NCBI RefSeq assembly: GCF_018219155.1
Contig: NZ_CP056124.1
Location: 1 to 64,000, forward strand
Reading direction: 5' to 3'
Source of the DNA: Moritella sp. 24
Lineage (GTDB): Bacteria; Pseudomonadota; Gammaproteobacteria; Enterobacterales; Moritellaceae
DNA length: 64,000 nt
Shown here: piece by piece, positions 14,316 through 62,677 of the stretch
Numbering within the stretch: position 1 is the stretch's first letter
How the letters are laid out: every line of letters starts with the position of its first letter
The notes under the pieces: model-generated
Database searches by the model: none
Told to the model about the DNA's origin: nothing
The model's input: only the letters and a program-made list of their open reading frames with translations
Program-made: the position numbers and the translations under genes

Positions 14316-17300
14316 TTATAAATCAAACGCATCTAAAACTGTTTGAGTGTCTAAGTCTGCTTTGACAAACCACCAAAAACCATCGAACTCACTAGACGCA
14401 TCAGCACCATTTACGGCTTTTTTACGGCGCTTAATTGGTGATAGAGCATCATGTAGAGCGCCGCCTTTACCTGCAGGATCATAGAACCCGATATATTCAT
14501 ACGGTTCACCACTTGCGAACACTTTACCTCGGAATGATTTTAATTCCATATCTAATGTGTTTCGCTTACAGACAATATTAAACTTCTCTTTCAAAATTGC
14601 CGCGTAAGGAATGGCTGACGCATCTAAGTTGTCACCGTCACTTTCAATTGCTGGTGCTGGTGGCTGTTCTGCCTTAACCGGCTCGGTTGATTCATCTTTA
14701 GGTAAGTAAGGCTGCAGCAAGCTAATATCGCGTCCCACTTCATTGTGAATTTTTGCGTAGGCCTCCTGTAATATTTCTGGCGTGGCAAGGTCCGTTGATA
14801 TTTGCGTTCTATAACCAATACGTCTTAAATCAGTGATCATGGTTTCAACGTGATCGGCATATGCTGTTTTCGGTAATGTTTCTTCAATGAACTCTAACGT
14901 ATATTGTTTCATATAGAGCGAATTACCAATAAACATACTTTCATCAAGTGTAAGCAAGCGTTTAGCTACGTCATCAATAGCACTGCCTTCTGCAGCACTA
15001 AAACGCTGCTTAATGTTGGCCATTGCCGAATCTCGCTTGCTTGTTGATTCACTTTCAAATAGCGCGAGCTCTTCAACAATACGATCTGAAATGGCCGTTT
15101 TAAGTGCGTCCTTTCTGAAAATATCACCAGGTACTTTATTTAAAGCATTAAGCTCACCTTTCAGTTTCAATGCAGGATAAGCAATCTTACCGGTGTGAAC
15201 GGCCTCATTTAAGTTGAGTTGATACGACTCACTGAATAAAGGCACTATCTCACGCTCTACAAATTGAGCGAGTTCTTCATTCGTTTCAGCATCAGGATTG
15301 TACTTAACAATGGATTCTACATAGTGCTCGCCGAATAAGAACTTAAGCGCCTCTGTTACCAGGTGTTCTTGAGTGCTGCCCGTTTTAGCGCTTTCGATGT
15401 AGATAAGAGCTAATTGCTCTTTTATCACTGAGTCTGATTTATCCAGGAATATGACTGTCGATTTATCTGACACGTATTGATACGCTTTCACGTTATATTT
15501 CCCGTTACTCAGCGTTAGCACTGGTAACTTCTCAGGAACTATATTGTTTTCAACTAAGCTGTTAAATAAATTACGGTCTAATAAGTTATAGCAATTAGAT
15601 AGGCCGTAAGTTGTTTTAAGTTCCAAAGAGAGTGCCGTGATCGTTTTACTAATGATGACTTCATCCTGCAAGCGACTTACAGGGTGAACACCGTAAAGAT
15701 AAGGACCTGCCGATAACGCCTCAATTTTAACACCACCTTCTTCGGGTAATACGTCAGTGACTATCACGGCGAAGTTACCGTAATCATAATCCGCAATAAA
15801 GTAAGTATTACCGATTCGAATAGCGCGACTGTTTACTTTGTCGTGGATAAAGCTAGTTGGGTTATCAATTAACTCAGGATCCAGTTTTAAAACACCGTTA
15901 TCAATTGCCGCTTGTACCTGGGGCTTTAAGCGTAAAACCTGCTGTTTTGCTTTGATTGCACCTTTCAATTTATTCTGTGCACGCTTTAATGCTGAGTTTT
16001 TTTCACGATTATTTTTCTTCGCTTTAGCTACATCACGCTTATTGCGATCAACAAGCCACCGGTGCGAATATTCGTCTTGTGATTCATCAAGTGTTTTTTG
16101 AGCATCTTGAAGGTGAACCTCTTCACGTTGAAGTCGTGCTTGGCTATTGACCAAGGCATCTGCAGCATCCCTTTCGTTACCTTCTAAGTGACCAATATTT
16201 TGTTTAGCCAGCGCTGCAGAGAGTAAATATTTTTCTAACGTGTAATTGGCCGACTCAACTTTAGACTTCTGCAGCTTTTCTTCTAACTCACGTTTGCGAA
16301 TTTCAAGCATTGCCGCGTATTCTTCGGGATTGTTAGCGAGTAATAAACCTGTGTCGTTATCATCATCAGCATCGCCATTATCTGCGCGTGACGCTGTGCC
16401 ATCGATAAGATCGTTCTGCCATTTACGCTTACGATTGATGGTATCGAGTCGGAATTGGTCAAAGGAACCTTTAGCAAGATAAAAATGGCTGTTCACATGA
16501 GACTGTGGCGCACCAACGCGAGCGCCGCGTCCGTTTCGCTGGTCGATTGAGGCCGGAGTCCAAGGCAAACTAAGGTGATGAATATCCGTAGTCTGAATGT
16601 GCAGGTTTACACCTACCTCGGCTTTCTTGTTGCAGATTAAAACACGGAACTGACCTTGATTGTAACGTTTGGCAATTGTCTCTAAACCTTCCTGGTCCAC
16701 ATCAGAAGTATCAAGCCCTTGCGCCTCAAGCTCTTCGCGTTTTTTCTTCGCTGCAGCCGCGCCCATTTTCTTAAAGCTATCTTCATTAATCGCGGATTCA
16801 TCACCGGTTACTGTCGAGCCGTTTAAGATACCCACTTGGTTTGGTTTTAAGCCCAGGTGGTGACAGATAATGCGGTGTAATTTTTTGTGCTGTGATTTTT
16901 CCTCAGTGAAAATGATTTGCTTGCCACCAGCCTCGAATGATTCTTTTAAGTTAGCAAGTAAACGGGCGTACTTAGGTGATACAGGGTGTGACACATCACC
17001 TTGGGTTAGCTTTTGTTTATTAAGACCGGCGATAAGTGCTGATTCAAACTTATCATTGATTGATACAACGAATAGGCCATCATCATTAATTGTAATTTCA
17101 GCGTTTAAATCGACCTTACGTTTAACGTTCTCCATTTCGCCATGCTGGTTTCGCTCACGAACCTGGATGGTTATCGGTGTTTTGATGTTATCGATAAGCG
17201 CTTGAGCTTGTTTTGCTTTCTCTTTAGGGAAAACAAATGTCATGCGTTGGTTGTAAAGCTCAATATCAGAAGTAACACGCTCCATATCTCGCATGACCGA

Positions 17301-20300
17301 AAAGATTTGGTCATCAGGGTATGTTTCAATAATCTGTTCAATTAATTGCTGCTCTGCAGGCGACTTGCCACTAAAGTTAAGTAGCGTTTCAATTCCGCCC
17401 TCAGAGCTGCTTGCGCGAATAATTTCAGCACGTAAACGTAACAGGTCATAAGCGTCTTGCTGTTCTTCGTTCATATCAACAACAGTATTACTATTGATAA
17501 TCTCGGGTACCGTAGTATCACTGGCTACATCTTTAATGTTTTTACGGTTACAGTAAGTATCAAAGAGTGAGCGTAGGCCATCTAAGTTTTTAAAGCCGGT
17601 TAAGCCCTGCGCCATTGCTTGAGAACCATCAAGGCGACCGATTTGAACTTCACTTGTTTCACCAAAGACGTTAATAAAGTCATCTTGGTTGGCAATACCC
17701 ATCGCTAGCCATTCTTCCGGCGTTAATACGTGTGAGAGCATGTTGTAAATATCAAGTGGACTATTTGGCGTTGGTGTTGCGGTTAGTAGTACAGCGCCAC
17801 GGCCATTCTGTTTACGTCCTAAGAATTGCATTTTTTGGCGCATGTCTGCAGCGACTTTAGCCTCGCCACCAGCCGACAAATAAACTAATTGGCGAGAGTT
17901 CTTACCTGCCTCTTGGCTATTGCGGTAGTTATGCCCTTCGTCCACGATAACAGTGTCAAAGTGCATATCTTCAAAGAATGGGTAATCGTATTCTTTCTCG
18001 GAGCCTTCTTTTACCAACTTGGCAAGTGCGGCCTCTTTTGCTTGCTGTTTTTTGTATGAGTCAGCAAAAACATCAATTTTACCCGTAGCAGATAAGTTAC
18101 CCATGTGTTCTGCAGCATTATCTTGAATGGTTGCAGGTTTCATTGGGATACGTGCAAACTGTTCCTTGCTCATAATAACCAGGTTGCAATTAGAGTGCGG
18201 GATCTTGTGCATCTTAGTGGCGATGTCTTCTGCACTTGATTCTTTTAGTACCGGTGTTGTTTTTGGGTTGTCCGTGGTTTTATGTAGTTTCGGGGTGCCG
18301 TCTTCATTCAAGATTGGCTGTGTTTGTACTACGCCTTCCTCATTCTTCACAAAATCAAAACCAACAAAGACCGTTTTAGATATGTTGTCGTAGCCGTAAA
18401 AATCGATTGTTTCGTTGATCCAGTTTTCAGTAACCGATTTAGGTACCACGATACATGTCCGCTTACTGCGTTTCTCTTTGGTGTTATATGCAACAAGACC
18501 AAGTGCGGTGAATGTCTTACCTAGACCGGTCCCAAAACCTAAGATACCGCGTCCTTCTTCTGAAAGTCGGCGGATACCACTGTTCTGATAACCCATGTTT
18601 ACGATATTACCTGACACGCCATCAAGGTTTAACGGGCTATCATCATGGTCAAATTGAATATTGCCGTTAAAGGAATCGTTATATCGTTCGGTAATCAATT
18701 TAACGTCAGGGTGTTGTTGCGCCCATAGCTGAAACTCTGATTCCATTTGTCGAACTTGTTCACGGTACTTACTCGATTCAACGCCGTTCTTGCCCTGGAC
18801 TGTTTGGCCGTTTAAGTATTTCTCTACTTGGCGAATAAAACGGTTGTCATCGTTTGAGGGTACTTTTTTGCCGTCTTTAGAGAAGTAACCAGTAAATAAA
18901 CCGTCCGAACCTTCGTATCCGGGCTGTTCTGTTACATTGCCGTCATCATCCACTTTAATGTCGGAGTAACTAAAATCGTCATAGCCGTTTTCTTGTAAGA
19001 ACTCGACAACCATTTGTCGTGGTAGCCATTTGCCACGTAAATCAAAATGAATATCTTCGGTCTTGGTCCATTTACGGTTTTTAGTGATCGCGTCTAGTTG
19101 GCGGTTGGCGTTGGCTTTTTGCTTGTCCGTGGCATGTTCATTCGCCAGGGTGTGCATGATGGCCGCTTTACGTTTGGTGATGTTCCCGCTGGTGGCGCGA
19201 TCAAGTGGTGATAATTGTCCGTTGTTATCAATGGCGATGTTGTCAAAGTCTGACAAGTAATCTAATAAGCTATTGTCATCATCGATGTCTACGTGTTCTG
19301 GTAATTCGCCGGTGAATGATTCACGAAAAGCATCAAGTGGCACTGAGGCGTGACCAATTGCATGAGATAGCATATCAATAGTGCGCTGTGCATTGGTTGT
19401 ATCAAAGGCCACTGTGCTCGATGTATCTAACTCGCCTTTCATTAAGTCTGAGAAAGTCCCATCACTGTTCATGGCATTAACAAAGCTTTGGTAATAACTC
19501 GCCGTTTGGTCGCCCTTGACGCGCTTTAAACCTTTTACATCGTGTGAGGTACCCAATCGGTCGAAGGTTGCATTAAGTTGCGCCTGTATCTCGATACGGG
19601 TTGTCTCTGCTCCCACGGGATCCAGTACACGTTGCATTGTGTAGTTCTCGATCATGGTCCCGATTAAGGCACCTTTAACGATTCGCTCTTGATGTCCTGC
19701 AGGGTGCTTTGATGCAAGCGTAAAGGCATTGGCAATAACGCCACTTGTTTTATCACCAAAGTTTTCGTGAATGTTTTTGAGGTGCTTAAAGTTTAATGCT
19801 AAAGCGTTTTCGGGGGTAGAGACTAACTCGGTTACATTATTAATTGAGTTGGTACCGAACTTATCAGCATCAATAAGGCCATTACTATTACTGAGTTTAA
19901 TCGGTAGCCATTCACTATCGATGTATTCATGCCAGCGACCGTTAATTTGGCGTTGGTCGCCTTCAATATAATTAATGGGTGCTTGCTCTGTTAGGTTTAA
20001 GCGGTCCCAATCAATGCGGCTTTCAAACTTTTTGCTAAGGCTTTTAGCGGTGGCCTGATTATGAGTATCAATCATATCTGACTTAACTTGGCCTTGTTCT
20101 GCAGTGAGTTGCTTGCCGTTCTCACCTTTAGGCAGATTAGGGATAGCTACCAGGTCACGATCAAAGTTAGCCGCGCCCTTAACTACTTCACCGTTGATAA
20201 AGCGCTTACCGTCTTTATCAAACCACTTACCTGTAATGAATTGAGCCCACAGTACGTTAGACTCACGTAATGTCTTCGTGTCACCATTGGCCACCAGCTC

Positions 20301-21152
20301 GGCCAGTTCTTCACTGTGTTTACGCATAATTAATACGTCAGTAACAACACTTTCAGACCCTTGGTTGCTAAATGCACCGGCGGCAATTTTATGTGCACCT
20401 AAGAACTCAGCTTTGCGGGATATTGTGGCGCGGAATTTACTGAGTGATGCAGCGCCAACGATGTTTTGCGGCACGACTAATGTAATGTAAGCACCAGGCT
20501 TGGCTTTATCGATTGCACGACTAACAAAGTAAGTCTCTTTCGTTTTAAGGTGTGCGTAGCTTGGATCATCATTTGCCAGGTTGCCACGGGCTGAACCGAA
20601 AGGCACATTACCCACTACGGCATCAAAGGTACCGTCTGTGCTACTGTCTGCAGCGAACTTTTCAAAGTTAGTATTTTTAACTTCATCTTCGGGGTGTAAA
20701 ATTTGGTTGATCTTAGAAGAGGTACTTGATAACTCAGTGGCCGTCATGATCACGCCCGTTGGTTTCGAGCCATTGAACACGCCGGTACCCGCGCTTGGTT
20801 CTAAGATATTACCCTGGGCTCCGCCATATTCTTTCAGCATATCCCACATGCCACTCGCTAACCAGGTAGGCGTATAATATTCGTCAGTGGACCCGCCGAT
20901 ATTACCTTCACCGGTATAACCACGTAAGATTTCTTTTTGCTCATTAGTGACAAGGAGAGGGTTATCTATTTGCTTAAGAACAGCCAAGGCTTTTCGGTTG
21001 GCCTCTCTGCGTGTCTTATCGATACTGACACGGAATGATTTAGTTACACCGAATTCGTTCTCTGGCTTTACTAAAAAGCCATCAAAGATACGAATCAGTT
21101 CACTAATATCATTAGCACGCGGCGCTTTAGATAAAAATTTAGTTTTACTCAT
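14316..21152 (-). CDS. darB: DarB-like antirestriction protein: N6-adenine methyltransferase plus SNF2-type helicase
   Basis: 2,278 residues, close to P1 DarB. Methyltransferase: YYTP at 92-95, motif I ILEPSAGTGVF around 116-126, motif IV as GNVPFG at 181-186 (the NxPF variant usual in this family). Helicase: Walker A GFGTGLGKT near 873, DEGH box (VDEGHNYRN) near 1070, and the C-terminal arginine-finger segment IDQRNGRGARVG near 1540. A long coiled coil (about 1590-1720) and a divergent C-terminal part follow. DarB protects phage DNA against type I restriction after co-injection. It is preceded by its own late-type promoter, matching virion genes. Confidence 0.9.
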   Translation of the reverse strand: MSKTKFLSKAPRANDISELIRIFDGFLVKPENEFGVTKSFRVSIDKTRREANRKALAVLKQIDNPLLVTNEQKEILRGYTGEGNIGGSTDEYYTPTWLASGMWDMLKEYGGAQGNILEPSAGTGVFNGSKPTGVIMTATELSSTSSKINQILHPEDEVKNTNFEKFAADSSTDGTFDAVVGNVPFGSARGNLANDDPSYAHLKTKETYFVSRAIDKAKPGAYITLVVPQNIVGAASLSKFRATISRKAEFLGAHKIAAGAFSNQGSESVVTDVLIMRKHSEELAELVANGDTKTLRESNVLWAQFITGKWFDKDGKRFINGEVVKGAANFDRDLVAIPNLPKGENGKQLTAEQGQVKSDMIDTHNQATAKSLSKKFESRIDWDRLNLTEQAPINYIEGDQRQINGRWHEYIDSEWLPIKLSNSNGLIDADKFGTNSINNVTELVSTPENALALNFKHLKNIHENFGDKTSGVIANAFTLASKHPAGHQERIVKGALIGTMIENYTMQRVLDPVGAETTRIEIQAQLNATFDRLGTSHDVKGLKRVKGDQTASYYQSFVNAMNSDGTFSDLMKGELDTSSTVAFDTTNAQRTIDMLSHAIGHASVPLDAFRESFTGELPEHVDIDDDNSLLDYLSDFDNIAIDNNGQLSPLDRATSGNITKRKAAIMHTLANEHATDKQKANANRQLDAITKNRKWTKTEDIHFDLRGKWLPRQMVVEFLQENGYDDFSYSDIKVDDDGNVTEQPGYEGSDGLFTGYFSKDGKKVPSNDDNRFIRQVEKYLNGQTVQGKNGVESSKYREQVRQMESEFQLWAQQHPDVKLITERYNDSFNGNIQFDHDDSPLNLDGVSGNIVNMGYQNSGIRRLSEEGRGILGFGTGLGKTFTALGLVAYNTKEKRSKRTCIVVPKSVTENWINETIDFYGYDNISKTVFVGFDFVKNEEGVVQTQPILNEDGTPKLHKTTDNPKTTPVLKESSAEDIATKMHKIPHSNCNLVIMSKEQFARIPMKPATIQDNAAEHMGNLSATGKIDVFADSYKKQQAKEAALAKLVKEGSEKEYDYPFFEDMHFDTVIVDEGHNYRNSQEAGKNSRQLVYLSAGGEAKVAADMRQKMQFLGRKQNGRGAVLLTATPTPNSPLDIYNMLSHVLTPEEWLAMGIANQDDFINVFGETSEVQIGRLDGSQAMAQGLTGFKNLDGLRSLFDTYCNRKNIKDVASDTTVPEIINSNTVVDMNEEQQDAYDLLRLRAEIIRASSSEGGIETLLNFSGKSPAEQQLIEQIIETYPDDQIFSVMRDMERVTSDIELYNQRMTFVFPKEKAKQAQALIDNIKTPITIQVRERNQHGEMENVKRKVDLNAEITINDDGLFVVSINDKFESALIAGLNKQKLTQGDVSHPVSPKYARLLANLKESFEAGGKQIIFTEEKSQHKKLHRIICHHLGLKPNQVGILNGSTVTGDESAINEDSFKKMGAAAAKKKREELEAQGLDTSDVDQEGLETIAKRYNQGQFRVLICNKKAEVGVNLHIQTTDIHHLSLPWTPASIDQRNGRGARVGAPQSHVNSHFYLAKGSFDQFRLDTINRKRKWQNDLIDGTASRADNGDADDDNDTGLLLANNPEEYAAMLEIRKRELEEKLQKSKVESANYTLEKYLLSAALAKQNIGHLEGNERDAADALVNSQARLQREEVHLQDAQKTLDESQDEYSHRWLVDRNKRDVAKAKKNNREKNSALKRAQNKLKGAIKAKQQVLRLKPQVQAAIDNGVLKLDPELIDNPTSFIHDKVNSRAIRIGNTYFIADYDYGNFAVIVTDVLPEEGGVKIEALSAGPYLYGVHPVSRLQDEVIISKTITALSLELKTTYGLSNCYNLLDRNLFNSLVENNIVPEKLPVLTLSNGKYNVKAYQYVSDKSTVIFLDKSDSVIKEQLALIYIESAKTGSTQEHLVTEALKFLFGEHYVESIVKYNPDAETNEELAQFVEREIVPLFSESYQLNLNEAVHTGKIAYPALKLKGELNALNKVPGDIFRKDALKTAISDRIVEELALFESESTSKRDSAMANIKQRFSAAEGSAIDDVAKRLLTLDESMFIGNSLYMKQYTLEFIEETLPKTAYADHVETMITDLRRIGYRTQISTDLATPEILQEAYAKIHNEVGRDISLLQPYLPKDESTEPVKAEQPPAPAIESDGDNLDASAIPYAAILKEKFNIVCKRNTLDMELKSFRGKVFASGEPYEYIGFYDPAGKGGALHDALSPIKRRKKAVNGADASSEFDGFWWFVKADLDTQTVLDAFDL

Positions 21153-23377: not shown

Positions 23378-25048
23378 ATGGTGATGAATGATGGTACAGA
23401 AAAGCCCAAAAAATTAGGCGCTATTGGTAGCGTATTAAAATTGATTGGTGATCAATTCCCTGGTCACAAAGAAAATGAGAACAGTAACACTGCACTGGAA
23501 GATTCCCCTCTTGCTGGTGGCGCAGGGTTTAACCATGTAAACGATGATACACATCTAAGTAATGACAGTGGTGATGAATCGCCGCGTGATGTCATTGCTG
23601 AAAAGAAAATGCCGATAGATCGCTCGGCAAAGTACGCAATTCTTCAAGGCATGTCACAAGATCCTTCATTGAGCGAGGGCCTTGATATGCACCTTTCTCA
23701 TGCTTTATCACCAGACCGCCGAACCAATCGTTCATTTAAGTTGGTATCAACAGCGCCCGAACACGATAAGTTAGTCGCAGAACAGAACGCACGCTTAGTA
23801 CCTAAAATGAATAATGGCTTGGTTGCCTGGGCTAAGGTGATGTGCATTTTTGGTACTAACTATGTTCGCCCGTACTGTAAAGAAGGTGTGGGCATTACCC
23901 ATTTTCAATCTGATTATTGGACCATGCCTAATTTTGTACGCAAGTATGAAAAATCAGGACTGTTAGCCGGTTACACATCACAGCACATGCGAAAGGAACA
24001 AAGCTCCGCCGTCTACTTAGCGCCGCCTTGGTCATTGCTAGAATTAAAGATCCCCTTCTTTCAACCTAACTTTAATATTGAACCGAACAATTATGACGGT
24101 AAGTTGTATAGCTTATTTGATGATGTCCACCATCGAACTCCGCTTGAGTCTCAAGATTACGGTACCTCGCTATTAGAGTATTGCTATGAACCGTACTGTG
24201 ATTTTAAAGAGTCACTAGCATCGCTGTTAGCCAGTCGCCGTAACGCAAGTCGTATTGACCGTTTCATTACCACGCAACTTGATAACTTAGACCCTGTAGC
24301 TGCAGTTAACTACATCAATCTACTTTCTCAACAAATGAAGTCGGATATGGAGTACACGGAGTCAAAGCACCGTAAAGCGGGTACCCGCCCTCTAATCAAT
24401 AACTCAATCATACCGGTGCAAGGTGGTAGCAAGGGCGGCACTACGATAGATACTCAATCTACCGATCCAAACATTCAATATTTAGAAGACATCATATTAC
24501 ACCTAAAACGTATGTGTTCAGCGTTAGGTATTGACCTGTCATTACTGGGTTGGGCTGACACCATGAGTGGTGGCATCGGTGATGGCGGCTTTCTTCAAAC
24601 CTCAATCCAAGCAGCTCGGCGTGCAACTTGGATACGCCAGGCATGTGAAACGCTAATCAATAACGCTGTAGAGCTCGACTTCTGGTACCGCTATAAAAAA
24701 GTGTTACCTGCAGGTCAGGAAAAGCCGTGGCGCGTTCAATTTTACTCACTGAACAATGCAATTGAAGAGCAAGAATCTATTGCGCGAGAAGGTAAGGCTA
24801 ACTTTGCTACAACGGTCGCTACGCTGGTGGATACGATGATGCAGGGTTCAAGTAATGGCTCTGATACATTGAAACGTGTCTTACTGAGTGATGTGCTCGA
24901 CATCGATGACGGCACGCTCGATACCATCTTAAAAGAATTAAACGTTACCCCTGCAGAGGGTGACGATCTTATGTCTGAATTTAATAATTTTACAGAAACC
25001 GAAAAAGCTCAAATGATATTGAGTAAATTAATGGAGAACGCAGAATGA
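23378..25048 (+). CDS. Portal protein
   Basis: 556 residues. Features of myophage portals are a disordered polar N-terminus (1-70), a central alpha/beta body, the long helix region (LLASRRNASRIDRFITTQLDNLDP, about 290-315) and the LGIDLSLLGWADTMSGGIGDGGFLQTSIQAARR segment typical of portal stems (about 387-420). It forms the dodecameric DNA gate at the head vertex and docks the terminase. First gene after a late promoter, overlapping the next by 4 nt. The terminase lies 18 kb away, an unusually scattered arrangement. Confidence 0.85.
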   Translation: MVMNDGTEKPKKLGAIGSVLKLIGDQFPGHKENENSNTALEDSPLAGGAGFNHVNDDTHLSNDSGDESPRDVIAEKKMPIDRSAKYAILQGMSQDPSLSEGLDMHLSHALSPDRRTNRSFKLVSTAPEHDKLVAEQNARLVPKMNNGLVAWAKVMCIFGTNYVRPYCKEGVGITHFQSDYWTMPNFVRKYEKSGLLAGYTSQHMRKEQSSAVYLAPPWSLLELKIPFFQPNFNIEPNNYDGKLYSLFDDVHHRTPLESQDYGTSLLEYCYEPYCDFKESLASLLASRRNASRIDRFITTQLDNLDPVAAVNYINLLSQQMKSDMEYTESKHRKAGTRPLINNSIIPVQGGSKGGTTIDTQSTDPNIQYLEDIILHLKRMCSALGIDLSLLGWADTMSGGIGDGGFLQTSIQAARRATWIRQACETLINNAVELDFWYRYKKVLPAGQEKPWRVQFYSLNNAIEEQESIAREGKANFATTVATLVDTMMQGSSNGSDTLKRVLLSDVLDIDDGTLDTILKELNVTPAEGDDLMSEFNNFTETEKAQMILSKLMENAE

Positions 25049-26889: not shown

Positions 26890-28007
26890 GCCTCGATAAT
26901 CTCCTTAATCGCCGCGAGTATTGCGGCTTTCTTACCTTCTTCTACATGTTCAATATCTAAGTTAAAACCATTTTTAGAGGTTTTCACAAAGCAAGTTGAC
27001 TTACCTTGACTAGCCACGCTAACCCTACGAGCTGGTTTCTCTTTTTTGGGTTTGTATGCAGCCGTAAAGCTTTCAATTTGTTTAAGGAAGGCTGCGTTAA
27101 GCTTGTTTGCAGTATTGCCTCCACAGTAATCCTGCAGCTTTTCTAGCGTTAACGTTTTGATGAAATCCCACAGTTTTGATAATGAATTTTTATCTTTACA
27201 TAGCGTAATAGCATTGTTTGCTTTCGTAACCGAACCGCGCCCGAACACGTTAAGATCTGGTATGTACTCTGTTAGTTCACGCGGTAAGTTATAAGCGGCT
27301 AAACACTCGGTTACTGTTGTTGGCGGTATACCTTCTTCTCTTGCTAGCTCATTTCTGCCAGCATAAACACCTTCATCTAGCATTTCTTGATAAATTGCGC
27401 CACGCTCAAAGGCTGACAGCTCTTTTTGAACGCTAGCAATACGGGTTAAGTATCGTATGTCTTTAGGAGCTAATTGCTCCTCAGTGACATACATTCTGAA
27501 AGTAACTTTATCAAGGATACATGACTTGCGGCGGCGGGAACCATCGAACGCAAGTGCTTTACCTGTTTTTGCATCAAGATAACCAATCGCGGGGAACTGC
27601 TGCCCTTTGATTTTTAATGTAGCTAAAATATCACTTAAACTACAGCGGTTAAGGTTATGCTGAAAACGTGCATTGGCCTTTACTACGCCTGTTTCATCTT
27701 CGATCTTATCCGCTTTAAATTCGCGTAATACAAAGCTTACCGTTCGTCCGTGATCAAGGGGGAGTGTAATTCTCTCTTTACCGCTTTCTACTTCTTCATT
27801 AAAGATGCGTTGGCTCTCCGCTTTGCTTGCATCGCTCATACCTGGTGCTCTTACACCACGCGATGTTCTTGTACTCTGCGTTACAGGCTGCGGGGCTGTC
27901 GCTATAACAGGTTCAGCCTGTGCCACCGGCGCTGCATTACTACCAGCATTATTCGTCACAGTTCTTTGTGGTTTATTTTTTTTGTTTTTAGGTCTTCTAT
28001 TACTCAT
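26886..28007 (-). CDS. parB: ParB-like partition protein
   Basis: 373 residues. A basic disordered N-terminus (SNRRPKNKKNKPQR), a ParB N-terminal region with FDGSRRRKSCIL around 150-165, and a helix-turn-helix (RNELAREEGIPPTTVTECL, about 214-232) characterise it as a plasmid/phage ParB that binds a centromere. Its start overlaps the parA stop (ATGA at 28007). Together they would keep a low-copy prophage plasmid in dividing cells, as in P1. The C-terminus has unusual runs before IEHVEEGKKAAILAAIKEIIEA. Confidence 0.85.
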   Translation of the reverse strand: MSNRRPKNKKNKPQRTVTNNAGSNAAPVAQAEPVIATAPQPVTQSTRTSRGVRAPGMSDASKAESQRIFNEEVESGKERITLPLDHGRTVSFVLREFKADKIEDETGVVKANARFQHNLNRCSLSDILATLKIKGQQFPAIGYLDAKTGKALAFDGSRRRKSCILDKVTFRMYVTEEQLAPKDIRYLTRIASVQKELSAFERGAIYQEMLDEGVYAGRNELAREEGIPPTTVTECLAAYNLPRELTEYIPDLNVFGRGSVTKANNAITLCKDKNSLSKLWDFIKTLTLEKLQDYCGGNTANKLNAAFLKQIESFTAAYKPKKEKPARRVSVASQGKSTCFVKTSKNGFNLDIEHVEEGKKAAILAAIKEIIEA

Positions 28008-29212
28008 GTTCTATTTTCCAAATATTGTTTAGACTTTGATTCAATATCTCGCACAATTTGAAGGGTTAGCGTTTGCGCTCGGCGAAATGCTTGTTTGCCA
28101 CCCAGGGTGTACTCACTTGCTGATAAATCATATATCGTTGAATACTCTTTAGCGCAATGCAGCACGGCATCTGATAAAGGGAAGTCGTAAGGGCTGCAGT
28201 GTTCACGATAAGTATCTTTAATTCTCGCAATCATATCAATATGCGCAACTGTCGTACCGGTTGCGGTTGGTTGAATAACGATATTGTCGTAACCAGTGTG
28301 ACCTTGGCCAGCAAGTAGCGGGTACGTGTTAGCTAAGTGTTCTAGGTATTTTTCAGAGCTATCAATATCATTTTCACTTGGGCGCATTGGAATAATCAGA
28401 TTATTCGCCGCAAAGTGAGCTGCATACGTTGCTGATGAAAAGTAAGGTGATGTATCGATGATGATAATGTCGTAATCATCCTTAATAGCATCAATGATCT
28501 TATTTAAGTCTTTATATGATGAATAAGGTACGCCTTCTTTATTCGCCTCTATGCGTTTTGATTCTACATAGGTTTCGTAATATCTATCTTCTTCTCGGGC
28601 GCACAGTATATTTAGATTCGGTAAGTTGGTTTTATATAATGATTTACGGCAAAGGTCCTGGTAAGTCTCGCCCTCACCTAATGAGTAGTTACCCGTTAAT
28701 AAGTCACCGGCACTAAAGTCATTTTTATTGAAGTTAGGTTTTAGCGCTGCAGTGGCCGTGCCTTGTGGATCGAAATCAAGTACCGCAATTCGCCACTGGT
28801 TTAAGCACTCAGTAGAAAGGCCAGTTGCTAGTGTTACAACCATTGTCGTTTTGCCTGAGCCACCTTTCTGTTGAGTGACACACCAGATAACAGGTTCTTT
28901 ACCCTTTCCTTTTGAATTCGGCGGGTTGAACTTATTGTTAATTTTCTTAACGTCAGACGCACTTATTCTAAATGACTTCGGTGAGTCTTCACGATAGTTG
29001 ATACCGAGTTCATCGCATATTTCCTTTAATTTACGCGGATGAATTTTAGTGGCAGCGTGCGCCTCATTTGAATTGTAAGTACGCTCGTATTTACCATTCG
29101 GGCTATTTTCATCAAGTGATAGCGTCAAGCCTTTATTGTTTTCTGTTGATGCTTTTGCTAGCGCTGCTAGGTTATTTAGCGTTTTCGCTGTTTCAACTGC
29201 GTTTTTGATCAC
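28004..29212 (-). CDS. parA: ParA partition ATPase (type Ia)
   Basis: 402 residues. The N-terminal ~105 residues, with a likely DNA-binding region, mark a P1/F-type ParA that autoregulates. Deviant Walker A KGGSGKTT at 116-123, Walker A' VLDFDPQGTAT near 145-155, and Walker B IIIIDTSPYF near 250. Oriented parA-parB on the minus strand with a divergent gene at 29335. An inverted TTAGTTTT pair at 29231-29238 and around 29315 could be its operator. Confidence 0.92.
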   Translation of the reverse strand: MIKNAVETAKTLNNLAALAKASTENNKGLTLSLDENSPNGKYERTYNSNEAHAATKIHPRKLKEICDELGINYREDSPKSFRISASDVKKINNKFNPPNSKGKGKEPVIWCVTQQKGGSGKTTMVVTLATGLSTECLNQWRIAVLDFDPQGTATAALKPNFNKNDFSAGDLLTGNYSLGEGETYQDLCRKSLYKTNLPNLNILCAREEDRYYETYVESKRIEANKEGVPYSSYKDLNKIIDAIKDDYDIIIIDTSPYFSSATYAAHFAANNLIIPMRPSENDIDSSEKYLEHLANTYPLLAGQGHTGYDNIVIQPTATGTTVAHIDMIARIKDTYREHCSPYDFPLSDAVLHCAKEYSTIYDLSASEYTLGGKQAFRRAQTLTLQIVRDIESKSKQYLENRT

Positions 29213-41100: not shown

Positions 41101-41118
41101 AAACATCGTTGTTAGGAT
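41101..41118 (+). promoter_or_regulatory. Dispersed 18-bp box before the terminase operon
   Basis: AAACATCGTTGTTAGGAT, the best match to the consensus, starts 3 nt after TATAAT, covering the presumed transcription start. Confidence 0.65.
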
Positions 41119-41128
41119 GATTGGGATC

Positions 41129-42199
41129 ATGAGTAAAAAAACGGATTGGCTTAAGCACTGTAAGCGTTTCTTGCAAAATGGCTCAACACCAGCTGAGCAA
41201 AGGGATTACGCAGAACGTCACCTCTTAAATTACAACACTTTTAGAAAGCGCCTGGCCGCGTACAAGAAGAGTGATACTTACAAGCGCAGCCTTGCTGCCA
41301 CTGAGACTGTGCATGCCAAAATCAGGGGCGGTAAGGCAAAGGCCAAACGTGAAATTGCTGAAAGTCAGATTCCAAAGGAAATGACGCGCGGCGCACGCGT
41401 AGCAAAGCCCATGCCAGCAGCACACCCAGGCATTAAATATAATCAAAATGGTACCCGCTCATTTAGACCAGGTAATCGCGTAGCACTTCTACATGCTGAG
41501 TTTTTAAAAGGTGGTTTTCGCTCTCGTAATTATGAGTCTAGGGGCAAGGTTGGTATCGATGAAAACCTTGAATTGCTCAATACCCAATTCGCTACAATCC
41601 ACGACACCGGTGCAGAGTTAATACATGACTTAGAGGCGCGTTACAAAGATAACGATCCCATCGTCCTTAAAGAAATGAACGCTACAGGCAAGGTTGTTGA
41701 ACGTGAATTGTCACTAGCCGAGGCCCGTATTGAAATCGCGCAGCAAACGGCAATGCCGATGACTGAGATTTTCAAAGTGATGCTCGCGGGTGAGGTTAAA
41801 TTAGCTGAGTTAGAGCTAAAAGATCGTGATGCCCCCATGTTCAGCAAGTTTGAGCAGTACCAAATAACAAAAGAGATCATCCAACAACGCATCGATGAGA
41901 AATTAACAGCGGGTGAAACATGCAGCATGTTTCTACTTGCCGGTGTTGAGCCCCCATCCATATTATCCCGCGAATATGAAATAGAACTACGCAATGCAGA
42001 GGCCGAACCGCCTAGCGATGATGGTATTACACCAGATCAAGCGTCCGAGCTTAAAAATCATTTAGTACAACGCAATTCAGACACCCCTGATTGGTTAGCC
42101 AAGCGCCGTGCTGAAAATGCTCGCGTATACGCAGAGTCAGCCGGTGTTGGTGATGAATTGATAACTCATAGTGAAGAGGTTGAAGATAGTGAAACGTAA
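41129..42199 (+). CDS. Putative small terminase subunit
   Basis: 356 residues from the ATG at 41129 (GGGATC upstream; an ATG at 41117 overlaps the box). N-terminal helix-turn-helix (CKRFLQNGSTPAEQRDYAERHLLNYNTFRKRL) as in terminase small subunits that recognise pac/cos. Middle region helical, suited to oligomerisation. It overlaps the next gene by 29 nt and precedes the large subunit. The 19-bp palindrome GAAACATGCAGCATGTTTC lies in its coding sequence at 41915. Larger than most TerS. Confidence 0.6.
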   Translation: MSKKTDWLKHCKRFLQNGSTPAEQRDYAERHLLNYNTFRKRLAAYKKSDTYKRSLAATETVHAKIRGGKAKAKREIAESQIPKEMTRGARVAKPMPAAHPGIKYNQNGTRSFRPGNRVALLHAEFLKGGFRSRNYESRGKVGIDENLELLNTQFATIHDTGAELIHDLEARYKDNDPIVLKEMNATGKVVERELSLAEARIEIAQQTAMPMTEIFKVMLAGEVKLAELELKDRDAPMFSKFEQYQITKEIIQQRIDEKLTAGETCSMFLLAGVEPPSILSREYEIELRNAEAEPPSDDGITPDQASELKNHLVQRNSDTPDWLAKRRAENARVYAESAGVGDELITHSEEVEDSET

Positions 42200-43049
42200 T
42201 AAAAACAGCAGAAAACAGCGTAAGTCATCACGGGTAGTAAATTCTACTGACCAGGGCTTGCATATGCCTGGTTCGACAACGACTAAGACACTGGCGACAA
42301 AGTGCGTGGCTATCGACCGCGCTTTTGCTGATGTAATCAGTAACATTGATATGGGTACCTGTGTGAAAAACCTCCCCAATATTGTTAAAGATAAGCGATA
42401 TACCGAGTTATTAAGTAAGTATGGCGAGTTCTATGATCGCGTTCTGTTTGATTTTTTCGATAAAGATATGACTGGCCAAGAAATGTTGCTCGTAAATACA
42501 GTGTTCGCGGGTGATAGCACTAAGACCTGTGTTCAGCTTGATTTAGATAGTAATGATGACACTTGGATGGAACTGCAGAGCATGTTGCTTGTTAGTTATA
42601 TGGTCCTTAATCCGTTGAGTCGTATTGTCATCATTTATTCTGGTGATAACGCCCCTGCAGCTATTTATAAGCAAATGACCAATATGGTTAAGCAGATAAA
42701 AATACTCATAACGAAAATGCCGTGGATTGGTGAGTATCTGTCAATTGTGGATAGCGGCCTAAAGATTAACTTACCAGGCACTAACAATTGGCGACTTACA
42801 TTTAAGCACTACAAGGCTGGTGGAGAACTAAAGCTTACTGGTGAATCTAACCCTAAAATGCTGACGGTTCTAAACAATGCACATGACTGCACTTTAGATG
42901 CCTGGCGCGTAGTCCAGCTCGCACAAACAGGTTGTGATAATAAGGTGCTAGCAATAGGTGGTAATCCCATTGCAGGCACCGCATTTAATACCGCCATTGA
43001 AAGTCCTAACTGGGCTAAAGCACCATTGAAAACGCTCATTGAGGCGTAA
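42171..43049 (+). CDS. TerL-like ATPase paralog lacking Walker motifs (pseudo-ATPase)
   Basis: 292 residues. From about 85 onward it aligns by eye with the TerL ATPase domain encoded next door: VLFDFFDKDMTGQEMLL with MYVFFGKYPDHQQRLML, LNPLSRIVIIYSG with FNPKCRVVVVAA, KMPWIGEYLSIVD with RMPWVAHYFKITD, and DNKVLAIGGNP with DNRVVALSQPT. The P-loop GHGTGKS is replaced by DLDSNDD, and Walker B MLTVMEE by MLTVLNN. The nuclease domain is absent. GTG start, 2 nt gap to terL. It may form mixed rings with TerL or regulate it; no such terminase component is known to me. Confidence 0.75.
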   Translation: MKRLKIVKRNKNSRKQRKSSRVVNSTDQGLHMPGSTTTKTLATKCVAIDRAFADVISNIDMGTCVKNLPNIVKDKRYTELLSKYGEFYDRVLFDFFDKDMTGQEMLLVNTVFAGDSTKTCVQLDLDSNDDTWMELQSMLLVSYMVLNPLSRIVIIYSGDNAPAAIYKQMTNMVKQIKILITKMPWIGEYLSIVDSGLKINLPGTNNWRLTFKHYKAGGELKLTGESNPKMLTVLNNAHDCTLDAWRVVQLAQTGCDNKVLAIGGNPIAGTAFNTAIESPNWAKAPLKTLIEA

Positions 43050-43051
43050 CA

Positions 43052-44722
43052 ATGGCAAAGAAACGTCTTTCCTCACTCAACAGTGATTATCGCTACTTAG
43101 GCTTGTTAGAGCATTATTCCCATGATTGGGAATTGGCTATGTATGTGTTTTTTGGTAAGTACCCCGATCATCAACAAAGGCTGATGCTTAAAAGTATTTT
43201 CCAAGAAAATGCGAGAACCAGTGTGGCCAGTGGCCACGGTACCGGTAAGTCAGATTTGATTAGCATGATCATCATCATGTTTATGATCTTCAATCCTAAG
43301 TGCCGTGTTGTTGTTGTCGCCGCAAAGCTGCAGGTGGTGAAAGACTCTGTGTGGTCAAACTTAAACGCTAACTTTGAGGCACTTGAAAAGCGGATGCCCT
43401 GGGTGGCGCATTACTTTAAGATCACCGATGTTAACTTTTACGAGAAGTCACAAAAGAACGTATGGCGTGCGAGTGCGAAAGGCTATCGCATCAACAATGA
43501 ACAAACACTAGCTGGTGAGCATAGGGACGTAATGCTTACAGTAATGGAAGAGGCCAGTGTTATTACTGATGCCGCCTTTCAGACTATTTTAGGCGCCCAA
43601 ACTAGCCGAGATAATCGTGTTGTAGCACTGAGCCAGCCAACGCACAGTGGCGGTTTCTTTTATGAAACTCAGCACTCTCGCTCAAAGTTAGAGGGCGGTA
43701 TGTGGGATGCAATGACGCTGCGCTCTGATGAATCTGAGTGGGTACAGCCAAACTTCATCCTTAACTGCCTAAGTGATTATGGTGGTTATGATTCACCAGA
43801 GTTTCAAATTAAAGTGTTAGGTCGATTCCCTGCCAAGCAAAGCTTATTCTTATTAGGCCGCACAGAGGTTTTAGGCGCAGTCGGTTGTGATGTTGAACTA
43901 GGCGATGATTGGGGGTGGGTGGCTACGATTGACGTTGGTATTACGCGAGATAAATCGGTTATCAACATTAGTAAAGTAAGCGGTGATATTGGTCCTGATC
44001 GTGTAGTTAAGAATGTCATGTTAATGGAAATGGCCGCTGATTACGGTACCCAAGCATTTGCACGCCGCGTGATCGCGGAATGCTGCAGTGGACGTTTTCC
44101 TAATATTACGATAGCGATTGATGCCGATGGTCCTGGTCATCCAATTTGGGAACATATTGTCGAGCTGGTGGAAGATGGTGGTTATGATGATGTCACCGTA
44201 TTGGCTATTAGATGGGGTAAGCCACCGTTTACCAAAAAACAAAAAGATAGATTTAAAAATCTGCGTGCGATGGCGCATGTATTTGCGGCTGATGCTATCC
44301 GGGCAAAACGCATGTCTATTGATAGTCAGACTAAAACAGTTGAACAGTTCTGTAAGTTACCAGGTGGTCTGAATGGTTCTGGCCAGTGGATAATGATGTC
44401 TAAACAAGACATGAAACTTAAGATGCAAATTGCATCACCGGATAGATCTGATACTTACTGCTTTACTCAAATTATAAATTATAAGGCCGCATCAATCGAA
44501 ACTAGCTTTTTCAGTAGTGATGATGCCGATGATTATAATGAATGGTTAGGTCTTGATGCCGATGAAAAAGAATATGAACCGGCAGATGGCGATTGGGATA
44601 AAATCAATCATTCTGACGATGATGATCACGATGAAAGTTATTGGGATGATATTGAAGAGGGTGATATTGCAATTAATGAGCAAGCGAGAAAAGAGTTGGA
44701 ATTATTAAATTATACTGATTAA
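43052..44722 (+). CDS. terL: Terminase large subunit
   Basis: 556 residues. Walker A GHGTGKS at 61-67, Walker B with catalytic carboxylates VMLTVMEE at 160-167, coupling motif VALSQPT near 190-196. Nuclease domain with VATIDVGITRDKSV (about 291-304), IAIDADGPG (about 353-361) and the last acidic cluster near 410-420. Ends in an acidic tail (HSDDDDHDESYWDD). It cuts concatemers and pumps DNA through the portal. Followed by a strong terminator. Confidence 0.95.
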   Translation: MAKKRLSSLNSDYRYLGLLEHYSHDWELAMYVFFGKYPDHQQRLMLKSIFQENARTSVASGHGTGKSDLISMIIIMFMIFNPKCRVVVVAAKLQVVKDSVWSNLNANFEALEKRMPWVAHYFKITDVNFYEKSQKNVWRASAKGYRINNEQTLAGEHRDVMLTVMEEASVITDAAFQTILGAQTSRDNRVVALSQPTHSGGFFYETQHSRSKLEGGMWDAMTLRSDESEWVQPNFILNCLSDYGGYDSPEFQIKVLGRFPAKQSLFLLGRTEVLGAVGCDVELGDDWGWVATIDVGITRDKSVINISKVSGDIGPDRVVKNVMLMEMAADYGTQAFARRVIAECCSGRFPNITIAIDADGPGHPIWEHIVELVEDGGYDDVTVLAIRWGKPPFTKKQKDRFKNLRAMAHVFAADAIRAKRMSIDSQTKTVEQFCKLPGGLNGSGQWIMMSKQDMKLKMQIASPDRSDTYCFTQIINYKAASIETSFFSSDDADDYNEWLGLDADEKEYEPADGDWDKINHSDDDDHDESYWDDIEEGDIAINEQARKELELLNYTD

Positions 44723-61114: not shown

Positions 61115-62677
61115 ATGATCACTCGTACTGTATCCGATGTCTCTGACGTTACCTTAAATTACACTGATGTTGGCAATACACTGTCAGTTGGTGCTGGTAA
61201 CGCAATGTCTTTCGTTGCACTTGTTATCTCAAGTAAAGGTCAACCAGGCAAAGTATTACCGGTTAATGATACTAACTGGCAGAAAACACTTGGTAAGCCA
61301 TTTCACTTTCGCGCCGGTTCTCATGCTGAATCACTTCGCCATATCAGTGAGGCTGTTGTTGGCGGCACTGGTTATGTTGTTCGTGTCATGCCTGATGATG
61401 CTCGCTGCCCTGTATTAACGATTGGCGCGGTTTCTGGTGATTCAAACACTGTAACAGCTAGCGCAGCAGCTTATGGGGCAGAGCCGACACTTAGCGATGG
61501 CTCGCTTGCTGCAATCTATTTAATTGATGGTGACAATGAGTTACCCCGTTCAATTGAAATCGTAGCTGCAGATGCAGGTGAATACGGCGCTAATTTCTTT
61601 ATTCTAACGCTTACAGAGCTACAAGCTAGCGGTGATACGCTTACGTTAGATACACAGGTTATTTCGTTTGATGTAAACGCAGTAGATGGTGATAACAAAA
61701 CAGCGTTCATTGAAGATGCACTGTCTCAAAACTCAACATACATGCGTGCCGTTGCCGATGTTTCTCAGACGATCGAGTTCAAGGCCATTGCTAAAACTGC
61801 GTTTACTGGCGGTACTTCTGGTACTTACAGCGACATTACAACAGCGCATTACCAAAAAGCGTTAGATTTAATCATCTCAGAAAACCCATCGTTTGAGGCT
61901 GTGATCGCAGCTGGTTGTTACGATGACACTATCTTAGATGGCTTAACTAAGTTGGCCGATTCGAACAATGTCTCTTTCTATTACGATATTGAGCCAAACC
62001 TATCGTTTGCACAGGCAGTAACACGCCAGCGCGATCTTGCGATTGGTAGCCACTTCGCCCAGGCATACCACCTACCTTATTCAGCCATTGACCCATTCTA
62101 CAAAAGCCGTGCGAACTGGGGCTTATCTGGTTTTGTTTTCGCGTCAAAAGCAAAAGGTGTAATGAGCAAGTCACCTACTGGTGGTTGGCACTTAACACCG
62201 GCTGGTGAAACTCGCGCAACACTCTCGCGTAAAAGCGCTGAAATCAACCCTAACGCTGGTATCCCTGATTATGAGGCGTTCGTTACTGTCCGTCTAAATA
62301 AGATGGGTAAGAACAGCGCTGGTCAATTGATGATTGATGATGCGTTAACGTGTCGAACTCGTAAAGATGCCCTTCGATTTGAAAACCAAGTGTCGGTTGA
62401 TTTAGCGATTGGTCGTGCATACGTGGCGTTGGCTAACTCGTTAAAACACGAACCAGATGGCGTAACGCTAAAAGGTCTTACTTCTGGTATGGCAACTATC
62501 TGTGATGGCTTTGTAGCGTCAGAGTGCCTGGTTAAGCCACGCGATCCAAACGATGGTGACAGCCCTTACATCATCCGTGTTGAGCAGCTTGAATCCGACC
62601 TTTGGAAAGTATCTTGGGATATTTGTATCTCTGGTTCTGCACGCCGTTTCATTGGCCAACCTCGCCTACTTAAATAA
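61115..62677 (+). CDS. Contractile tail sheath protein
   Basis: 520 residues. The first 90 residues (SVGAGNAMSFVALVISSKGQPG....AESLRHISEAVVGGTGYVVRVMPDDA) and the C-terminal VRVEQLESDLWKVSWDICISGSARRFIGQP have the layout of phage sheath proteins, including the terminal strands that interlock subunits. This establishes a myovirus. Confidence 0.85.
   Translation: MITRTVSDVSDVTLNYTDVGNTLSVGAGNAMSFVALVISSKGQPGKVLPVNDTNWQKTLGKPFHFRAGSHAESLRHISEAVVGGTGYVVRVMPDDARCPVLTIGAVSGDSNTVTASAAAYGAEPTLSDGSLAAIYLIDGDNELPRSIEIVAADAGEYGANFFILTLTELQASGDTLTLDTQVISFDVNAVDGDNKTAFIEDALSQNSTYMRAVADVSQTIEFKAIAKTAFTGGTSGTYSDITTAHYQKALDLIISENPSFEAVIAAGCYDDTILDGLTKLADSNNVSFYYDIEPNLSFAQAVTRQRDLAIGSHFAQAYHLPYSAIDPFYKSRANWGLSGFVFASKAKGVMSKSPTGGWHLTPAGETRATLSRKSAEINPNAGIPDYEAFVTVRLNKMGKNSAGQLMIDDALTCRTRKDALRFENQVSVDLAIGRAYVALANSLKHEPDGVTLKGLTSGMATICDGFVASECLVKPRDPNDGDSPYIIRVEQLESDLWKVSWDICISGSARRFIGQPRLLK

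Follow-up and report, generated by a model that had tools for sequence, protein, structure and literature searches.

Why should a phage-plasmid keep, directly before the gene for its intact terminase, a second terminase-like gene whose product has lost the residues needed to use ATP? The question is raised by a locus of Moritella sp. 24 (assembly GCF_018219155.1), the 4.73 Mb genome of which comprises three contigs; the third resembles a Moritella marina plasmid, with about 90% identity across 46% of the contig. The stretch analysed here, which we call the window, is bases 1-64000 of the 72,909-base contig NZ_CP056124.1, and by its sequence this contig is a P1-like phage-plasmid. On the forward strand of the window a pacA-like gene is followed by a gene for a 292 aa protein that we term X, and then by pacB, encoding the large terminase subunit TerL. 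X is a kept but dead TerL-like protein within a packaging operon, and this is both real and unusual.

Derivation of X from PacB

The open reading frames (ORFs) of X (42171..43049, with a GTG start) and PacB (43052..44722, 556 aa) are as given in a preliminary description of the locus, which had also held that X aligns segment by segment with the TerL ATPase domain. This homology was borne out. Residues 66-272 of X align with residues 4-203 of PacB with 28% identity (58 of 209 columns) and 46% positives in BLASTP (E = 2e-18), and comparison of X with a 7-sequence PacB profile by hhalign gave a probability of 98.3% (E = 1.4e-14). A hidden Markov model (HMM) of the PacB ATPase domain gave two matches among the six-frame ORFs of the contig of at least 40 codons, i.e. 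PacB itself (E = 1.2e-129) and X (E = 1e-23).

At the site of the Walker A motif X has LDLDSND (residues 123-129; 42537..42557, forward strand) where PacB has GHGTGKS at residues 61-67, and a few inserted residues adjoin it; the preliminary description had recognized this loss, giving the replacement as DLDSNDD, one residue along. It was likewise right in placing LNN (residues 234-236; 42870..42878, forward strand) opposite the Walker B sequence MEE of PacB (165-167), which puts an Asn at a Glu column that is invariant across 29 intact rows of the alignment. Of the SQPT motif P alone is retained, and the conserved R146 has become K. The protein stops at the equivalent of about PacB 203-225, and the linker and RNase H-like nuclease domain are absent, again as described. 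Since both Walker A and the Walker B acids are lost, X is without the residues that the TerL mechanism requires for ATP binding and hydrolysis. There are 45 columns, none beyond PacB position 205, with conservation of 80% or more among the 29 intact rows, window PacB included. Of the 14 that belong to catalytic motifs X keeps one, and of the remaining 31 it keeps 12 (Fisher P = 0.038), where a gap in X is scored as lost and the motif columns are our own choice. By sequence X is thus TerL-derived, catalytically dead and nuclease-less. With the P1 PacB family it has in common a homologous N-terminal ATPase domain, the place after pacA in the operon and the predicted fold; it differs in lacking Walker A, the Walker B acids, all of SQPT except the P, and the whole nuclease.

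In the PacB of the window Walker A is intact, and the residues conserved across the aligned nuclease domains are present. It matches PHROG 2, the terminase large subunit (E = 2.5e-26), and is 42-45% identical to the PacB proteins of P1, D6 and Vibrio phage-plasmids. We note that its Walker B position (43547-43549) is occupied by Glu 166, of MEE, where the other 28 of the 29 aligned intact rows have Asp.

The preliminary description had proposed a check for a RecA-like fold in X, and prediction with AlphaFold2 gave one. From an alignment of 33 sequences (picked from 64 rows) the model has a mean predicted local distance difference test score (pLDDT) of 72 and a predicted template modelling score (pTM) of 0.68. 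Of the 19 ten-residue blocks that span residues 71-260, 15 have pLDDT values of 87-96; the other four, including the lost P-loop, lie at 61-77. Both ends are of low confidence, with pLDDT of 34-48 in the six N-terminal blocks (residues 1-60). In a Foldseek search of the Protein Data Bank the first five matches were TerLs of HK97 and P74-26, and among the nine with E of 0.001 or below seven were TerLs and two were NAT10. E values were 4e-5 for HK97 (6z6d), 6.5e-5 for P74-26 (4znl) and 6.1e-4 for T4 gp17 (3cpe). The best 50 matches among viral predictions include 31 that are named; terminases make up 21 of these, and a further one is DNA maturase B. The template modelling (TM) scores are modest, 0.37-0.45 by query length with the tails included. 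X is therefore predicted to have a RecA-like ASCE core of the TerL ATPase type. Note that the model was built using TerL relatives, so that its fold agrees with the homology and is not an independent proof.

The reading frame of X is unbroken and coding-like. When a 200-codon pacB segment was allowed to drift neutrally to 28% identity it acquired a mean of seven stops, and one of 2000 simulated frames remained open. The codon score of the X frame is 0.18, while the two remaining forward frames score -0.86 and -1.20; over the N-terminal extension it is 0.10 as against -1.10 and -0.82, while one reverse frame there scores 0.00. With a frame open far beyond neutral expectation and gene-like codon use, X is probably not a relic. 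X turned up as a single sequence, with no close relative to supply a ratio of nonsynonymous to synonymous change (dN/dS).

Origin and relatives of X

Trees of the ATPase domain place X as the sister of the window PacB, with support of 100/90 and 94/88 in two trees, while a family of dead paralogues from P1- and D6-like phage-plasmids (PHROG 5902) forms a separate clade (100/100) within enterobacterial PacB. If long-branch attraction were at work the two dead groups should come together, and their separation runs counter to it. A joint clade of X and PHROG 5902 is worse by 9.7 log-likelihood units (lnL; P = 0.07 in the approximately unbiased test, p-AU), and a single old family, suggested by shared DSGL and AH residues, is disfavoured but not rejected. 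In a tree without the dead family X groups with the window PacB and those of its nearest relatives, the loci L027 and L028 (84/82). Here X as sister of the window PacB, or of this PacB together with L027 and L028, fits equally well (lnL difference 0.17), and the duplication may thus predate L027 and L028 and have been lost in them. The first tree contained 71 of 167 rows, after removal of locus copies, of ORFs whose match was short or had E above 1e-20, and of rows at least 88% identical; the later trees used 31 and then 27 of these 71. Most likely, on this sequence evidence, X arose by duplication in place within its own sublineage, separately from PHROG 5902.

No match to X was found in 50,697 phage records, while 72,556 plasmid records gave 13 matches, all of them in genes annotated as terminase and none covering 80%. 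X was not found in ten other genomes of the genus, and a negative search of viral and genome contigs with short peptide patterns of X reaches close relatives only. In an order-level search with PacB (394 genomes, of which nine matched) the loci fetched had no second PacB-like ORF before pacB, and a class-level search (369 genomes, PacB sublineage profile, E of 1e-30 or below) returned the genome itself and one distant partial match. The collected loci L001-L172 and the window contain 180 PacB-like ORFs, 161 with a Walker A pattern and 19 without. Those without it are five of X (the window and four overlapping copies), ten dead paralogues of the P1/D6-like type, three TerLs with intein-like interruptions and one ORF cut by a contig end. 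Where at least 1200 bases lie upstream of a Walker-A-bearing ORF (154 cases), a second PacB-like ORF upstream was seen only in the five from the window locus.

The preliminary description had considered such a protein unknown from other phages, and here it needs correction, since dead PacB paralogues occur elsewhere, outside the pac operon. No natural dead TerL paralogue was described in the literature searched, which comprised titles and the starts of abstracts and left most subscription journals outside. The PHROG 5902 or WP_000610386-type proteins (member P0001 matches that family with E = 5.7e-184) are 364-366 aa in length and are carried by some of the P1- and D6-like phage-plasmids that reside in E. 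coli and Salmonella, for example at L025:9001-10095 and L029:12163-13260. Like X they are ATPase-dead and nuclease-less; they have PHGIGET or PHGIGRP at the Walker A site and INS or VDS at the Walker B site, and the D6-like form has a predicted fold (pLDDT 87.7) that again matches TerL ATPases in Foldseek. They differ from X in an extra C-terminal segment of ~100 aa, in milder motif changes with 33-38% identity to enterobacterial PacB, and in lying outside the pac operon. The C-terminal segment of the L025 and L029 proteins also matches the 511-column PHROG 17928 (E = 1.7e-13 and 4.9e-13). X matches columns 4-190 of the 359 in the PHROG 5902 model, with E = 3.5e-15, more weakly than does the active PacB of the window (4.6e-88).

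In P1-type phages the PHROG 5902 gene lies between ssb/isaA and hxr, and in D6-like plasmids it follows dut, DUF2829 and isaA-type genes. The contig of X has no isaA-like (PHROG 2326) ORF at E up to 10, upstream of X or elsewhere. An obligate partnership with isaA is unsupported, as the loci L108 and L109 (Pantoea), L111 (Serratia) and L115 (Rosenbergiella) contain isaA-like genes and no second PacB-like ORF. In the P1 prototype IS1 and isaB replace the PHROG 5902 gene, with DNA matches resuming on either side, and the D6 prototype gives one PacB match only; both prototypes thus live without the paralogue. P1 IsaB was also considered as its remnant and rejected, since the two are no more alike than chance would make them (best E 0.08). 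The D6-like form is held over at least 80% of its length in 163 of 774 matching plasmid records and in three of 33 matching phage records; the listed rows with PacB only cover 31-75%, and the 163 are therefore taken as probable carriers. Among D6-like genes dN/dS is 0.10-0.38. Within the P1-type genes it ranges from 0.24 to 1.00 (NG86), with very few changes (dS 0.008-0.038) and hence uninformative, and between the two types dS is saturated or undefined.

A third set, V1-V3, comprises small PacB-like proteins of 165-297 aa in Vibrio P1-like phage-plasmids (four plasmid records; L187:3001-3504, L188:2926-3819 and L189:2923-3420), and was included in none of the trees. Like X they keep the block around GNEEALAG, have no Walker A and have changed Walker B acids; unlike X they are shorter or have another C-terminus and lie outside the pac operon, and they are not close to it. 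In L189 the flanking genes on both sides have weak, non-significant stretches resembling the PacB nuclease, as if PacB had been split. A relative consisting of the nuclease alone (265 aa, L190:3001-3798, with the same protein in L183), 29.7% identical to residues 305-475 of P1 PacB, is carried by five Citrobacter P1-like plasmids. PacB has seemingly turned non-catalytic at least twice, perhaps three times, in P1-like phages. PHROG 5902 shows conservation among some phage-plasmids of E. coli and Salmonella, yet no function is recorded for it in the annotations or literature searched.

Possible roles of X

We tentatively favour the reading in which X has been retained as an accessory subunit, structural or regulatory, of the phage's own terminase. 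It would have arisen as a partial duplicate of pacB in the pac operon that kept the fold of the ATPase domain and lost the ATP motifs and nuclease. X starts at GTG 42171, overlapping pacA by 29 bases, or at GTG 42189, overlapping it by 11; it ends 2 nt before the ATG of pacB, with GAGG 7 nt upstream of that ATG. These overlapping and abutting genes suggest that X is made together with PacA and PacB. We infer that X may dock, through its ATPase-like fold and basic N-terminal tail, onto PacB (with its acidic tail as candidate partner) and/or PacA, and would adjust how the terminase assembles, how pac is cut or how packaging begins, without moving DNA.

The tails in question are an N-terminal extension of X of 60 aa (42171..42350, forward strand) with a net charge of +10, or +7 from the second GTG, and residues 486-556 of PacB (44507..44719, forward strand) with a net charge of -24. 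The extension is absent from PacB, and tblastn found no match to it among the collected loci other than copies of X. From the DTYCF motif to its end the window PacB has 90 residues, compared with 35-43 (charge -8 to -11) in five relatives that all lack X ahead of pacB. Perhaps the two tails pair, a docking hypothesis drawn from their sequences.

Several points weigh against this role. Opposite charges in neighbouring genes can be a coincidence, or can serve DNA or other partners. The other dead paralogues lie outside the pac operon, and a role in the phage's own motor leaves this wider pattern unexplained. The argument for an accessory subunit is drawn from sequence, a predicted model and operon position. 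The end branch of X is very long (4.0 in two trees, 8.1 with the dead family excluded), which may mean a role unconnected with PacB. X was found neither in L027 and L028 nor at 103 further PacB loci of the P1 type that have 1200 or more bases upstream (many from near-identical E. coli phages, and a few records present twice). pacA and pacB overlap directly in P1, L027, L028 and two Vibrio plasmids; in L027 and L028 nothing lies between them and the whole record has a single PacB-like place, although this whole-record search of 26 relatives missed V3 of Vibrio, later found by tblastn, so that very diverged copies in L027 and L028 are possible. X is at best lineage-specific, and since its nearest relatives have overlapping pacA and pacB with no X, a P1-type motor can do without it. 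The preliminary description had named absence of the protein from relatives without other change as evidence against its proposal. The absence is seen in L027 and L028, while their PacB proteins are only 52-53% identical to that of the window, and further changes may accompany it.

Rather unlikely, though ahead of the other alternatives, is a reuse of the fold outside packaging, with X as a DNA- or protein-binding module that serves the lytic or plasmid cycle. The long branch, the retention of only 12 of 31 non-catalytic conserved columns and the basic tail, which might bind DNA, would suit such a role. So would the position of the PHROG 5902 genes, away from pac and after isaA-type and DUF2829 genes, and isaA and isaB were scored as non-essential in P1 in one study (PMC10695390). 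Yet X alone sits within pacA-pacB, in genes that overlap and abut, and the PacB of the same phage has a longer acidic tail than those of the five relatives compared, both being points against this reading.

Bacterial Avs-type sensors detect TerL, and the dead TerL-like domains of X, PHROG 5902 and the Vibrio set could act as decoys that blunt such sensors, or as poisons of competitors' terminases. For X we consider this unlikely. The existence of at least two, perhaps three, separate non-catalytic PacB-derived lineages (the Vibrio set standing outside the trees) is in keeping with it, as is their patchy accessory distribution, seen in the 163 of 774 plasmid records and in the P1-type phages, where the gene falls within a variable region of P1-like phage-plasmids (PMC9603915). 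An Avs3-TerL complex (8dgc, by its title) is among the Foldseek matches of both the X and PHROG 5902 models. On the other hand, a terminase poison made in the phage's own packaging operon would strike its own PacB, no PADLOC match was found for X, PHROG 5902 or the Vibrio set in a library that covers defence and not counter-defence, and no paper on TerL decoys was found in the literature searched. The decoy reading is a better fit for the copies of PHROG 5902 and of the Vibrio set, scattered as they are, than for X.

In F1-ATPase non-catalytic alpha subunits stand beside catalytic ones, and X in a ring of PacB may be likened to these. A hetero-oligomeric ring in which a dedicated non-catalytic X stands beside catalytic PacB, tethered by the tails, would be a natural asymmetric packaging motor; we regard it as improbable. 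Mixed rings are physically possible, since the T4 motor tolerates an ATPase-dead subunit and still packages, if less well (PMC8589836). The subunit doped into those motors was the Walker A mutant Q163A of gp17, likewise ATPase-dead within a working ring, but it is a laboratory mutant of the same gene and slows the motor, whereas X is a natural paralogue. Such doped subunits have already probed whether the subunits of a packaging ring must be equal (PMC8589836), and the natural pacA-X-pacB operon would permit this to be tested directly. X is no less likely to regulate assembly or pac cutting than to sit in a mixed ring. The preliminary description had suggested that X was kept without catalysis as a subunit of an asymmetric or regulated motor; its retention agrees with a frame open beyond neutral expectation, while the motor goes beyond anything found here.

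Finally, a decaying duplicate without function would account for the lost catalytic residues, truncation, single occurrence and very long branch, but is very improbable for a 292-codon frame still open at 28% identity (one in 2000 in the neutral simulation of a 200-codon segment) with gene-like codons, a predicted folded core and preferential loss of catalytic columns, the comparable D6-like paralogues moreover having dN/dS values of 0.10-0.38 among themselves.

The surrounding phage-plasmid

The pacA-like gene (41117..42199, forward strand) encodes a protein of 360 aa of the small-terminase, pac-recognizing type, assigned from a match to PHROG 1711 ('terminase', E = 4.8e-9) and from its position, which is that of pacA in P1. 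Its product shares 27% identity with the proteins encoded immediately upstream of pacB in L027 and L028. Both pacA and pacB were scored as essential in P1 (PMC10695390). A PacA-like gene whose product is 23% identical to that of the window occurs in an Aliivibrio wodanis plasmid (L023:5989-7023), the whole record of which gave no PacB match.

Elsewhere in the window are genes for a portal protein (23378-25048) and, by profile match, a tail sheath (61115-62677), and baseplate genes were also matched on the contig by profile search. On the minus strand are a gene (14316-21152) for a 2278 aa protein whose matches are of DNA methyltransferase and DarB-like type, and one for a ParA-like protein (28004-29212). 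Among the collected loci, the three TerLs with intein-like inserts (L138:9374-11347, L169:9392-11221 and L170:8078-10507), as judged by eye, are interrupted inside Walker A itself (GHG/C... ...N/TGK, the strokes marking the insert).

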